From Synechocystis sp. PCC 7509 (GTDB lineage Bacteria; Cyanobacteriota; Cyanobacteriia; Cyanobacteriales; Chroococcidiopsidaceae): 64,000 nucleotides of DNA. Under the pieces are notes generated by a model that searched no databases, was not told where the DNA came from, and worked only from the letters and a program-made list of their open reading frames with translations. The translations under genes were made by a program, and so were the position numbers. Location of the stretch: assembly GCF_000332075.2 (NCBI RefSeq), contig NZ_ALVU02000001.1, positions 2,182,324 to 2,246,323 of the forward strand, given 5' to 3'. This document shows positions 33,410-57,705 of this stretch, in pieces. The first letter of the stretch is position 1. Each line of letters starts with the position of its first letter.

Positions 33410-33590
33410 ATAACAGAAAAGCGCTAGATAATACCAAAAGTTATACAGAAAAATTCCGTACAATACCCCATAAAGGTTGGATATACGGAAATTTTTTTAT
33501 AATTTGCAACTGTGGATGTTGGGAATAAACTTTCTGTATATTATGCTTAAAAAATAGCTACAATGTATACATATTTTTAAATAAAATTAA

Positions 33591-34619
33591 ATGTCACAAT
33601 TAGAAAAGCAGCATTACGTTCCCCAGCAATATTTAAGGCTTTTTAGTCATAATAGAAAAAAAATATTTGCATTCTCCAAGCCTGAGCAAAAATTTTTTTC
33701 TCCCAATGTGAATAATGTTGCAAGTGAAAAATGTTTCTATGATTTCCCTCAAAATGCAACTCAGCCTGAGAATATCAAGTTTATTGAAGAACTATTTGGA
33801 GACTTAGAGGGGAGACAAGATAGATTTTTGAGGCATCTTCAAAAGAAGATAGATGGAATTTTTCGTTTAAGTCTCAATCCCAACAAAGAGGCTAGAAAGA
33901 TCCATTTAATAAATGCTCTCACCACAGATCAACGAAAGGATTTAGCCTGTATTGCTGCAATTCAGTTTCTTAGGACAAAAGAGTTTCGGAAATTTATAGT
34001 TGAGATGCGTAAATCAACCGAGTCTCTAAGAACCAATATTCTAGAAGAAGAAATCATAAAAGAATTTGATAAACTATTGTCCATAAGCTTTGACGAAAAA
34101 CTAATTTCTGATATTAAATCTCTTATTGTTGATAAAAGTAGTTCTATTGAATCTTCAATGTATAAAGAAGGTTTGGCTGTAATACACGCCAAATTCATTC
34201 TCGACCATTATAAACAAGTAGCACAAATCTTTAACAGTCACATCTGGTTAATTGGAATCAATGATACAGACCGACCTTTATTCACCTCAGATCATCCTGT
34301 AGCTCGACATCCTTATCTGTCTCTAGGAGGTATTGCTTCTGAGGGAATCGAAATTGCATTTCCTCTTAATATCAGAGCAATTTTGATTATGCGAGATAAA
34401 CAATATTTTCAAGAGCAGGTTAATCAAGACAATAAACTTTTCTTCCTTACTCTTGAGGATGTTGAGCATTACAATAAATTGCAAATATATAACAGCAATC
34501 GATATGTTTTTTGTTCTGATGACTGCTTTGACTTAGTTAAGATAGTCTGCAAACAGCAACCTGAGATATGCTCAGAAGATAGAAATAGAGTTCAACTTAA
34601 AAATGGTGAACCACAATAA
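33591..34619 (+). CDS. DUF4238 domain protein
   Basis: This encodes 342 residues. It opens with the family hallmark KQHYVPQQYLRLFS, followed by KKIFAFSKPEQKFF and NNVASEKCFYDFP. Later it has PLFTSDHPVARHP, another conserved DUF4238 motif. The molecular function is unknown; one DUF4238 protein has been reported as a phage-defence gene from prophage hotspots, so a defence role is possible here. The gene is AT-rich and free of HIP1 sites, which suggests transfer. Upstream bases 33449-33494 contain an imperfect inverted repeat around TTCCGTA / TACGGAA. Confidence 0.82.
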   Translation: MSQLEKQHYVPQQYLRLFSHNRKKIFAFSKPEQKFFSPNVNNVASEKCFYDFPQNATQPENIKFIEELFGDLEGRQDRFLRHLQKKIDGIFRLSLNPNKEARKIHLINALTTDQRKDLACIAAIQFLRTKEFRKFIVEMRKSTESLRTNILEEEIIKEFDKLLSISFDEKLISDIKSLIVDKSSSIESSMYKEGLAVIHAKFILDHYKQVAQIFNSHIWLIGINDTDRPLFTSDHPVARHPYLSLGGIASEGIEIAFPLNIRAILIMRDKQYFQEQVNQDNKLFFLTLEDVEHYNKLQIYNSNRYVFCSDDCFDLVKIVCKQQPEICSEDRNRVQLKNGEPQ

Positions 34620-34700
34620 TGCGCCATAACGAATCATTAGAGCGGATGATACGGCATTAGAAAAGGTATTCACGCTGTTAGCTATGACTTAAATATACGA

Positions 34701-35117
34701 TCATTTTGTTGGTGGGTAACGACCAAGTAGTTCTTCTTCTGCCCGAATTGATAGAATAATTGCACGATTCAGTTTCAAAGCATTGACAGTCGCACGTCCC
34801 ACTAATGTCAAACCAATAACCTGAAAATCTCTCCAGTAAAAATGCTCCTTCCAAGCTTGTTGACGAGGATTAAAAATTTTCACAAATTCACTCGTTTCGG
34901 GATCTTCTACGTCTTGCCTTGCCCCTTTGTAGAGTGAGCAAGATACACACGCAAGAGCTAAGTTATCTGCCGTTGTTGAGCCACCCGCTACTACAGGAAT
35001 CACATGATCGACATGAAATGTAGCTGCTTGCCCCAATTGTGATAAACCGCAATACTCACAATAGTTTTCTGCCCTTTGAATAACCAATCGACGCAAAGAT
35101 ACAGGGATTGATGCCAT
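34701..35117 (-). CDS. HNH endonuclease
   Basis: The 138-residue protein carries a full HNH motif with a zinc ribbon: CEYCGLSQLGQAATFHVDHVIPVVAGG, then STTADNLALACVSCSLYKG. The HVDH His-Asp-His and the later Asn are present, and four cysteines form the two CxxC knuckles. Such stand-alone HNH proteins are common in cyanobacteria; a role in mobile-DNA or defence nicking is possible but not shown. It follows the small 67-residue gene by six bases, and the pair occurs as a unit in other cyanobacteria as far as I recall. Confidence 0.88.
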   Translation of the reverse strand: MASIPVSLRRLVIQRAENYCEYCGLSQLGQAATFHVDHVIPVVAGGSTTADNLALACVSCSLYKGARQDVEDPETSEFVKIFNPRQQAWKEHFYWRDFQVIGLTLVGRATVNALKLNRAIILSIRAEEELLGRYPPTK

Positions 35118-35123
35118 CTATTT

Positions 35124-35327
35124 TTACTTTGCTACTCTTTGCGATCGCAAATGTAGCAGAGACAGAAACTCAGCTAATTCAACTAAACCCTCTGCCTCGT
35201 CTCTTTCTAATGGAGTTAACATTTCACCAGTATCTTGATGATCTAGCAAGAGTTGAAGACGATTGTGAACCGCTTTAGGGAGTTGAAAGTGAGTCAATTC
35301 AATAGGTATCTCAATGACTTCAGGCAT
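35124..35327 (-). CDS. Small helical protein upstream of HNH
   Basis: This encodes 67 residues: EVIEIPIELTHFQLPKAVHNRLQLLLDHQDTGEMLTPLERDEAEGLVELAEFLSLLHLR. The pattern, with a leading beta strand and two amphipathic helices, is one I associate with small cyanobacterial proteins placed in front of HNH genes. No enzymatic motif is present. It may modulate or bind the nuclease encoded six bases downstream (inference from spacing only). Confidence 0.65.
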   Translation of the reverse strand: MPEVIEIPIELTHFQLPKAVHNRLQLLLDHQDTGEMLTPLERDEAEGLVELAEFLSLLHLRSQRVAK

Positions 35328-35417
35328 AGAGGTAAGGGATGTAGAATACTAACGAGTATTTAATGCTATTGTAACTCAATGATCTTTTTTGCCGTTTTGC
35401 GCTAAGGTAGCACTGCC

Positions 35418-35506
35418 ACCTAACACATCGCTGCACCAAAACGGAATCATAAGCTATTGATTGAGTTGCAGAGTGTGTTGCCGTCTGGTGAGCTTTGCTA
35501 TTGGGC
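35418..35506 (+). other. Degenerate attC-like inverted repeat
   Basis: ACCTAAC at 35418-35424 fits the integron R'' core. GCTGCACCAAAACGG (35430-35444) pairs imperfectly with CCGTCTGGTGAGC (35481-35493), and TATTGGGC follows near 35499-35506. No good GTTRRRY core closes it. It could be a decayed attC site or a chance hairpin. Confidence 0.25.
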
Positions 35507-55585: not shown

Positions 55586-56047
55586 ACTAACTACAATTAT
55601 TTTTACCTATTCAGGACGAGGTTACTGAATTAATTGCGATCGTATTACATAGTACCTAAATTTTTAAGTATCCTTATTTGGGCAGATGTCAAATCAGAAG
55701 CACTAGAGATATTCAGGGAGAATCTCAGTTTTGCAAATAGTTAGTTGTAGATAGCATTCCATTAAGATAAGCAGTGCGATGAAAGAGAACTTGCGACACA
55801 TTGTGTTTGTTTCATTGTGCGCCGGAGATTTTTACCAGTAATGGAAATAACCAGAAAAATCTAAATCGTGAGGTTTGGAAGCTCCGCACCTTCAGGTCGG
55901 AGAGATGTCACTCTAGTAGCCTAACAGACGAAGAGTAGGAAATCCTTGAACCCTTGTCGAGGGCTTTTGTCGTTACAATTTTATTTCCAAATAATATCCC
56001 GATGTGGGGTGATATCAAGAAAGCTTCTGAATATCGTTCTAATTTAT
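55586..56047. other. Gene-free region with an IS605-type right end and half of a palindrome-ended sequence
   Basis: About 460 bases follow the ABC gene. They hold the 79-bp right-end copy at 55834-55912 and the left arm TGGGGTGATATC at 56005-56016. No left end for the IS605-type copy and no coding frame was found. Confidence 0.55.
55834..55912 (+). repeat. Solo right end of the IS605-type element
   Basis: These 79 bases are identical to 8876-8954, including the CTCCG(C)ACCT/AGGTCGGAG hairpin and terminal GATGTCACT. No LE-type hairpin lies within the 250 bases upstream, so this is a truncated copy. Confidence 0.8.
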
Positions 56048-56951
56048 GGTAGTGCGTCAATTCAATGTGGGATGATATAGTGACAGGGTGGTTTTAAACT
56101 CGAAGCATCTCTATGGATTGTCCTCTGTGTGGTCACATTAAAGCCCATAAACATGGCAAGATGCCGAACGGACATCAACGTTACCTGTGTCCCGCTTGCC
56201 ATCAAACGTTCTCGGAATCCTTCGACAGTTTGTACTATCGTCGACATATTAGTCCTGAACAAATTCGCCAAGTGTTGCAAGCACATAGTGAGGGCAGTAG
56301 TTTACGAGGGATTAGTAGAACAACTGGGCTTGCCTACAACACAGTTGTGAGTATTGTTCGCGCTGCCAGTCAAAAAGCCCAATTGGTTCACAATGCCGAA
56401 GTCCAAGCTGTACAAACAGAGGAGGTAAGTGCCGATGAGATGTGGTCATTTGTCTCAAAAAACAGAAACAGTGTTGCGCTCAAGAACTAGAAGTCGGGGA
56501 TTGTTGGATCGGTCTGAGTCTTGCCGATTCAAGTGGCTTAATTCTGGCGGCGCGAGTTGGCAAACACACTGATGAACTGATTGGTCAGTTAGTCCTCAAC
56601 ACCGAGGGAAAAACAAATTGCAAGCAATTTAACAGTGATGCTTGGGGCGGGTATGAGCGAGTTCTACCTCCTGAAATTCACCACTACATTGGCAAAGACA
56701 AAACGCAGCGATTAGAACGTACTAATGGTACTGTGCGACAACAAACCGGAAGATGGCATCGACGACAGAACAAGTTTGGTAAGGTGTGGGAACAGACAAA
56801 AGTGACAACTCGATTAGTGGTGAGTTACTTCAACTGGATTTGGCAGCATAGCCGATTCAAAACAACTGCTGCACAACGAGCCGGATTAGCAACGAGAGCG
56901 TGGAGTTGGCATGATATTGCTACCTATCCCACATTAATTTGATGCATCACC
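56048..56951 (+). mobile_element. IS1-family insertion sequence
   Basis: The 904-base element starts GGTAGTGCGTC and ends GCATCACC. The terminal 25 or so bases are imperfect inverted repeats that begin GGT, as in IS1. Its target site duplication is TAATTTAT at 56040-56047 and 56952-56959. It holds the two-frame transposase with an A-AAA-AAC slippery site at 56456-56462. Intact ends and TSD indicate a recent insertion. Confidence 0.9.
56113..56942 (+). CDS. IS1 transposase, joined by -1 frameshifting
   Basis: Frame 1 (56113-56490) gives the InsA-like part: CPLCGHIKAHKHGKMPNGHQRYLCPACHQTFSES zinc finger, then an HTH (LRGISRTTGLAYNTVV). Frame 2 continues from the slippery A-AAA-AAC (56456-56462), where TCA AAA AAC shifts to read SKKQKQCC, through DCWIGLSLADSSG, the catalytic region CKQFNSDAWGGYERVLP and LERTNGTVRQQTGRWHRRQNKFGK. 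IS1 elements use the same A6C site. The full-length product is about 275 residues and appears intact. Confidence 0.9.
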
Positions 56952-57073
56952 TAATTTATGATGATACTTAGAAAATCTCGACGATTGATCGGGCTTTACT
57001 TTATGCCGATATTTTTGGCGGATATCACCCCAATTTTCAGGGAATAGACGGAAACTTTCCGTACAATAAATAA

Positions 57074-57580
57074 TTAGGCTTCATCTCATCTCTTTCACCT
57101 ACCTCTTATGCCAAATCAACCCGCATCAGAAATCGAGTTGCTGCGCGCAGCGTACGCGGCTTTCAACGCGCGCGACATTGATACCGCTCTCGCCCTCATG
57201 ACTCCCGACGTAGCTTGGCCGAGGGCGTTCAAAGGCGGTTTTGTCCGTGGGACTGAAGAAGTCCGCGCTTACTGGACGGAGCAGTGGAGCGAGATCGATG
57301 GACGCGTCGAGCCAGTTGCCTTTCACCCAGAGGATGCTGGGCAGATATTGGTCGAGGTGCATCAGGTCGTGCGCGATCTGTCCGGCGGCGTGCTTGCCGA
57401 TGAACACGTTGGACACCGTTTCACCATTGAGCATGGCTTGATTCAAGCCATGGAAGTTTGTTCACTTCCATCGTCCAACCCCGGTGACTAACCAAGCGCT
57501 GTAGCCGACCGCCAGGGCGTACAGCGTCTCTGCTGAACTCCGTGCTTGGTTTCGCTCCGGCGGCGGTTGAGCTTGGCTCG
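57074..57580 (+). mobile_element. Putative single integron gene cassette
   Basis: The left junction is TTAGGC at 57074-57079, which would complete GTTAGGC in the circular form. The right junction is GTTAGAC at 57580-57586, cut after G. The gene's stop codon TAA lies inside the R''-like GACTAAC (57486-57492), typical for cassettes. The 507 bases are visibly richer in G+C than the flanks and contain no HIP1 site. No integrase gene is in the window. Confidence 0.6.
57108..57491 (+). CDS. SnoaL-like NTF2-fold protein
   Basis: This encodes 127 residues. ASEIELLRAAYAAFNARDIDTALALMTPDVAWP, then GTEEVRAYWTEQW and EDAGQILVEVHQVVRDLSGG are the standard SnoaL-like fold pattern. Such proteins are isomerase- or hydratase-like or simply ligand-binding, and are frequent cargo of integron cassettes. 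Codon use is GC-rich, unlike neighbours. Its stop codon overlaps the putative attC R'' core. The function here is undetermined. Confidence 0.88.
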   Translation: MPNQPASEIELLRAAYAAFNARDIDTALALMTPDVAWPRAFKGGFVRGTEEVRAYWTEQWSEIDGRVEPVAFHPEDAGQILVEVHQVVRDLSGGVLADEHVGHRFTIEHGLIQAMEVCSLPSSNPGD

Positions 57581-57586
57581 TTAGAC
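57486..57586 (+). other. Putative attC recombination site
   Basis: R''-like GACTAAC (57486-57492) and R' GTTAGAC (57580-57586) enclose an imperfect palindrome: CAAGC at 57493-57497 pairs with GCTTG (57571-57575), and ACCGCC (57508-57513) pairs with GGCGGT (57562-57567). A length of 101 bases fits attC sites. The bottom strand should fold as the substrate for an integron integrase. Confidence 0.55.
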
Positions 57587-57705
57587 AGAAAGATATTCAG
57601 TGATTTTTGCTGTGTATCCTTGCAACTAATTCAATTTGGCGTTGGCGTAAGCCTGCCGTAGGCACAACCTGTCCTTTGGATAATCGCCCATAGTATCGAG
57701 ATATC

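Follow-up and report, generated by a model that had tools for sequence, protein, structure and literature searches.

A SnoaL-like gene at a putative attI site: probable first cassette of a degenerate cyanobacterial integron

The window, i.e. the whole stretch of 64,000 nucleotides that was analysed, holds a short gene for a SnoaL-like protein that lies between two putative integron recombination sites, with an IS1-family insertion to its left. The features of the locus are as follows.

55834 to 55957, no strand assigned: repeated DNA, found again in identical or near-identical form at other places of the genome, at the place where the integron integrase gene (intI) would be expected
55985 to 56047, plus strand: candidates for additional attI-like repeat units, left of IS1 (AATATCCCGATGTGGGGTGATATCAAGAAAGCTTCTGAATATC), from reading of the sequence and without a model match
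56048 to 56951, plus strand: IS1-family insertion within the apparent attI repeats, from Zn_ribbon_InsA and DDE_Tnp_IS1 matches, its ends and a target duplication
57001 to 57079, plus strand: 3' part of an attI-type site with a repeat unit TTTATGCCGATATTTTTGGCGGATATCACCCC and a core-proximal unit GAATAGACGGAAACTTTCCGTACAATAAATAATTAGGC, from an attI profile and a hand-built matrix
57003 to 57674, plus strand: block in common with a Chamaesiphon MAG (92-93% nucleotide identity, blastn)
57073 to 57079, plus strand: putative attI/cassette junction core ATTAGGC, from the sequence, aligned to the consensus AUAGUUAGGC of attI profile R1
57074 to 57580, plus strand: predicted integron cassette as circularised, delimited by means of the attI and attC models
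57108 to 57491, plus strand: gene for a SnoaL_2/NTF2-like protein of 127 amino acids (Pfam PF12680, E 7.5e-11)
57486 to 57586, plus strand: predicted attC of 101 bases (R'' GACTAAC, L'' GCTGTAGC, L' GTTGAGC, R' GTTAGAC), from a covariance model

A sequence-only reading had described a GC-rich SnoaL-like gene between TTAGGC and GTTAGAC, and this description was verified for both borders (57074-57079 and 57580-57586), for the domain, which spans nearly the whole protein, and for the GC content (0.57-0.60 for the gene versus 0.37-0.47 in most flanking stretches). It was likewise right in placing the stop codon in an R''-like motif and in expecting a perfect core upon circularisation: the stop codon (57489-57491) lies within GACTAAC (57486-57492), the R'' of the attC, and joining G57580 to the TTAGGC from 57074 gives GTTAGGC, a complete GTTRRRY core. 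The protein is like other SnoaL_2/NTF2-like proteins (PF12680) in its domain but differs in having no close solved relative, the best PDB match being a weak one to TerC (E 6e-4). By its family it has an NTF2/SnoaL fold. With dN/dS values of 0.14-0.35 against seven relatives, the gene is evolving under purifying selection.

For the attC a covariance model (R2) was used in which the R and L boxes are paired and which was trained on 19 attCs taken from plasmid integrons (class 1 and related), from arrays beside cyanobacterial integrases and from one neighbouring Verrucomicrobiota cassette, with SnoaL cassettes excluded. This test, of a kind proposed together with the original description, placed its top match in the window on the plus strand at 57486-57586 (33.2 bits, E 9.7e-6; this model and the attI model below are small and their E-values rough), versus only 4.5 bits for the minus strand. 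Such strand asymmetry is an expected property of attC sites. On 33 control loci (136 kb) matches with E < 0.1 were confined to the loci of distant SnoaL paralogues. The attC-like palindrome claimed earlier is thus recovered by the model at these positions, but its folding energy does not discriminate: for the 111 nt attC region the plain folding energy is ordinary compared with shuffled sequences (z -1.3 and -0.3), so that the palindrome alone is weak evidence. An Rfam scan of the window yielded nothing at the gathering thresholds. A home-made attC box scanner was discarded as evidence, since it yields chance matches, and served mainly for gathering candidates.

Relatives of the gene with 75-90% amino acid identity were found on cyanobacterial plasmids and chromosomes and on contigs of other phyla (Verrucomicrobiota, Planctomycetota, Gemmatimonadota, Myxococcota and Fibrobacterota, which are MAG labels with misbinning possible). 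The gene occurs in tens of contexts, with near-identical copies in differing contexts and phyla. The sequence-only reading had suggested a search for copies with other attC partners, and such copies were indeed found on three contigs (L074, L067 and L009). Some of the Verrucomicrobiota copies are enclosed by full attCs; for instance, on the Chthoniobacterales contig L074 the gene stands between two full attCs with perfect R boxes, and a perfect attC accompanies the gene on the Phragmitibacter contig L067. In a protein tree of the family, which has too few columns to resolve its history, the labels of the other phyla are scattered, though each may still have a single origin. The match to the attC model, the attC-flanked copies in other phyla and the spread over tens of contexts together support the prediction that the element at 57074-57580 is an integron gene cassette.

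We also found a clear match to attI at the left border. An attI profile (A1, R1) built from 22 attI sites that adjoin integron integrases, with the window excluded, gave 32.1 bits (E 6.5e-9) for 57039-57079, a score as high as that of real integrase-linked sites, and 18.3 bits for the next best place. A hand-built attI matrix gave 32.8, within the range of integrase-linked sites, with 16.7 as the next best score in 128 kb of strand. In most integrase-bearing genomes several palindromic repeats of the type TTATACGGAAAATTCCGTATAAC lie between intI and the first cassette, and the last of these repeats runs into ...TATAATAAATAGTTAGGC. Integrases with this attI occur in sister and related genomes, and in sister genera intact integrases adjoin the same arrangement as that of the window. 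Judged by these matches, the cassette appears to start at a cyanobacterial attI. Its core, ATTAGGC, departs from GTTRRRY in the first base (GTT to ATT), and because of this mutation the cassette is probably immobile now. A TATAAT-like element is conserved just before the attI core, at which a promoter scan of the window gave only a weak match; the first cassette may be expressed from this promoter-like element within attI. In other integrons the first cassette is expressed from Pc. Within the limited literature searched, neither this attI architecture nor its abundance without integrases was found described.

The attI repeats appear to be interrupted by the IS1 insertion, whose two transposase ORFs, inverted ends (15 of 20 terminal bases) and 8-bp target duplication TAATTTAT on both sides bear out what had been read from the sequence. 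The stretch at 55834-55957, which had been called an IS605-type remnant, was recognised solely by the further copies of it that the genome holds.

The integrase itself was reported missing by the same reading, and this now holds genome-wide: no match exceeded the cut-off of TIGR02249, and the best weak matches are other tyrosine recombinases. In the window, a search for a remnant of intI found none. Across the order, intI scores over the family cut-off in 30 of 293 genomes. The genome contains three more strong attI-type sites, at C1:2030775 (minus strand), C1:3244655 and C1:2721770, two of them with attC model matches nearby. The first (examined over C1:2026000-2036000, L200) is followed by genes for a SnoaL_3 protein, a HAD hydrolase and a GNAT acetyltransferase, with attC matches at C1:2030219 and C1:2028874, and at C1:3244655 an alignment of about 46 nt with the 5' end of intI shows that the site keeps an intI stub. 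Altogether, four of the five attC matches in the genome lie at most 2.5 kb from one of the four attI matches (binomial P 1.4e-9 for random placement).

Among 30 genomes searched, the window genome included, we counted 86 distinct attI places in 26 genomes. At least 14 of these places, several with a broken intI, have a trace of the gene within 1.2 kb, from intact genes to fragments, a number that is a lower bound as the list of intI genes was incomplete for some of the 30 genomes. In related genomes intI fragments were found beside attI sites at all stages of decay. In about 28 cyanobacterial copies of the SnoaL gene the start codon is preceded, at a distance of 26-35 nt, by attI-like sequence. 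Many of these attI-like sequences are degenerate, and no intI was found in the DNA examined around the copies. As attI is still recognisable, as the site at C1:3244655 keeps an intI stub and as relatives show decaying intI beside attI, the missing integrase is better explained by loss than by off-target insertion; moreover, the many integrase-less attI sites in related genomes point to a relic of a known system rather than to a chance insertion.

The locus is thus very probably what is left of a degenerate chromosomal integron of the cyanobacterial type, with the SnoaL gene as its first and here only cassette (a CALIN-type element). An integron integrase would have recombined the circular SnoaL cassette, as the bottom strand of its attC, into attI, giving the order attI-TTAGGC-gene-attC. 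Subsequently intI would have been lost, IS1 would have split the attI repeats, and the change in the attI core would have left the cassette probably fixed; we infer this order of events from the present arrangement. Against a degenerate integron stand the single cassette left, the lack of an intI remnant in the window and the mutated attI core.

Another possibility is that attI and cassette moved here as one block, by transfer of a fragment or in a way similar to delta-attI cassettes, and that an integron never operated at this position. We consider this rather unlikely, yet a serious alternative. With the Chamaesiphon MAG the block at 57003-57674 has 92-93% identity, whereas the housekeeping DNA (RelA and ABC transporter) of the two genomes reaches only 66%, which argues that the block was transferred recently. 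It exceeds the cassette on both sides, taking in about 70 nt of attI on the left and extending about 90 nt to the right of the attC, so that attI and cassette may last have moved together by some other route. However, possible repeat units (read from the sequence) extend to the left of both the shared block and IS1, and the same integron could have reached both genomes. No empty site was found in relatives, in which the flanks are rearranged and other genes follow the left-hand ABC transporter gene.

The sequence-only reading had preferred an insertion at a secondary (attG-like) site by an integrase from elsewhere, which fits the lack of an integrase in the genome and is one proposed origin of integrase-less cassette clusters (PMC8618304). 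This explanation does not stand and seems very improbable: an attG would be unrelated to attI and match it at no more than a few bases near GTT, whereas the sequence before the cassette matches integrase-linked attI sites over 41 bases and has the palindromic repeats seen at intact integrases, and three more such sites, two with attC matches nearby, occur in the same genome. That the gene is an ordinary, vertically inherited one with a chance resemblance to attC and attI would agree with its unremarkable folding energy but is hardly credible, as the two models independently match the correct borders, as the genus yielded just a single further close copy (partial, 78%) while near-identical ones occur across contexts and phyla, and as the genome-wide co-location of attC and attI largely refutes it.

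Returning to the degenerate integron, the locus resembles a CALIN as defined in IntegronFinder (PMC9024848) in that it is an attC-bearing cassette in a genome without intI, but it has a single attC, below the default of two in IntegronFinder 2, and its attI is still recognisable. Loss of intI is one proposed origin of CALINs (PMC8618304). Of the parts of a complete integron, it lacks the intI gene and has an attI next to the first cassette, albeit with a mutated first core base. Integrons and intI have already been reported in cyanobacteria, integrase-less attC clusters are likewise known, and a cyanobacterial attC model exists (PMC2426708, PMC8352920, PMC9668308, PMC9024848; intI in PMC2426708 and the attC model in PMC8352920). 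With the chromosomal integrons of cyanobacteria the locus shares the attI-type sequence and the attC class, but it differs by its lack of an integrase, its single cassette and its IS1-interrupted attI repeats. In delta-attI cassettes of mobile integrons, such as attI1-aadB-delta-attI1 (PMC12901181), part of attI may likewise travel with the gene; in the notation of that paper the attI part follows the gene, whereas in the window it precedes the gene and the attC follows.

The attI of the lineage thus allows one to decide, for a lone cassette, between an integrase that was lost and one that was never present, and one SnoaL-like gene family is marked as a widely travelled cassette. The counts of attI places and of intI suggest that, within this order of cyanobacteria, integrons with an integrase are far rarer than decayed ones; what integrons have contributed to cyanobacterial genomes in the past would for that reason be underestimated by any search that depends on finding intI or two attCs. 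We tentatively propose that large numbers of cyanobacterial multi-repeat attI sites with their TATAAT element could persist without integrase, each supplying a fixed promoter platform to a domesticated first cassette, with which it could at times move from genome to genome.

Several minor observations were made. The attC copy of Chamaesiphon (L007, 5379-5417) has been shortened relative to that of the window by the loss of about 60 nt from its middle. Of the three additional attI-type sites of the window genome, the two besides L200 (L201 and L202) have, in one case, an intI stub, with a DUF5615 gene nearby, and, in the other, a gene for a 207-aa protein and an attC, and a strong attC (46.5 bits) lies on another contig, at C3:91193-91278, away from attI matches. 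At one further locus (L129, on contig C104 of genome G007) an acetyltransferase cassette and the attC preceding it point toward the attI and a broken intI, opposite to the usual orientation. The window itself holds a second integron-like relic at 33440-35506, in which attI-like repeats lacking a clear core (33440-33560) precede a DUF4238 gene (33591-34619), followed by an oppositely oriented HNH gene and an attC-like site at 35418-35506 (21.8 bits, E 0.005) whose R' begins with ATT. Finally, genes of a distant SnoaL-like family (about 43% identical; L093-L098) in sister genera adjoin matches to the attC model, in one case (L094) directly after an attI site, and appear to represent a second SnoaL-like cassette family.
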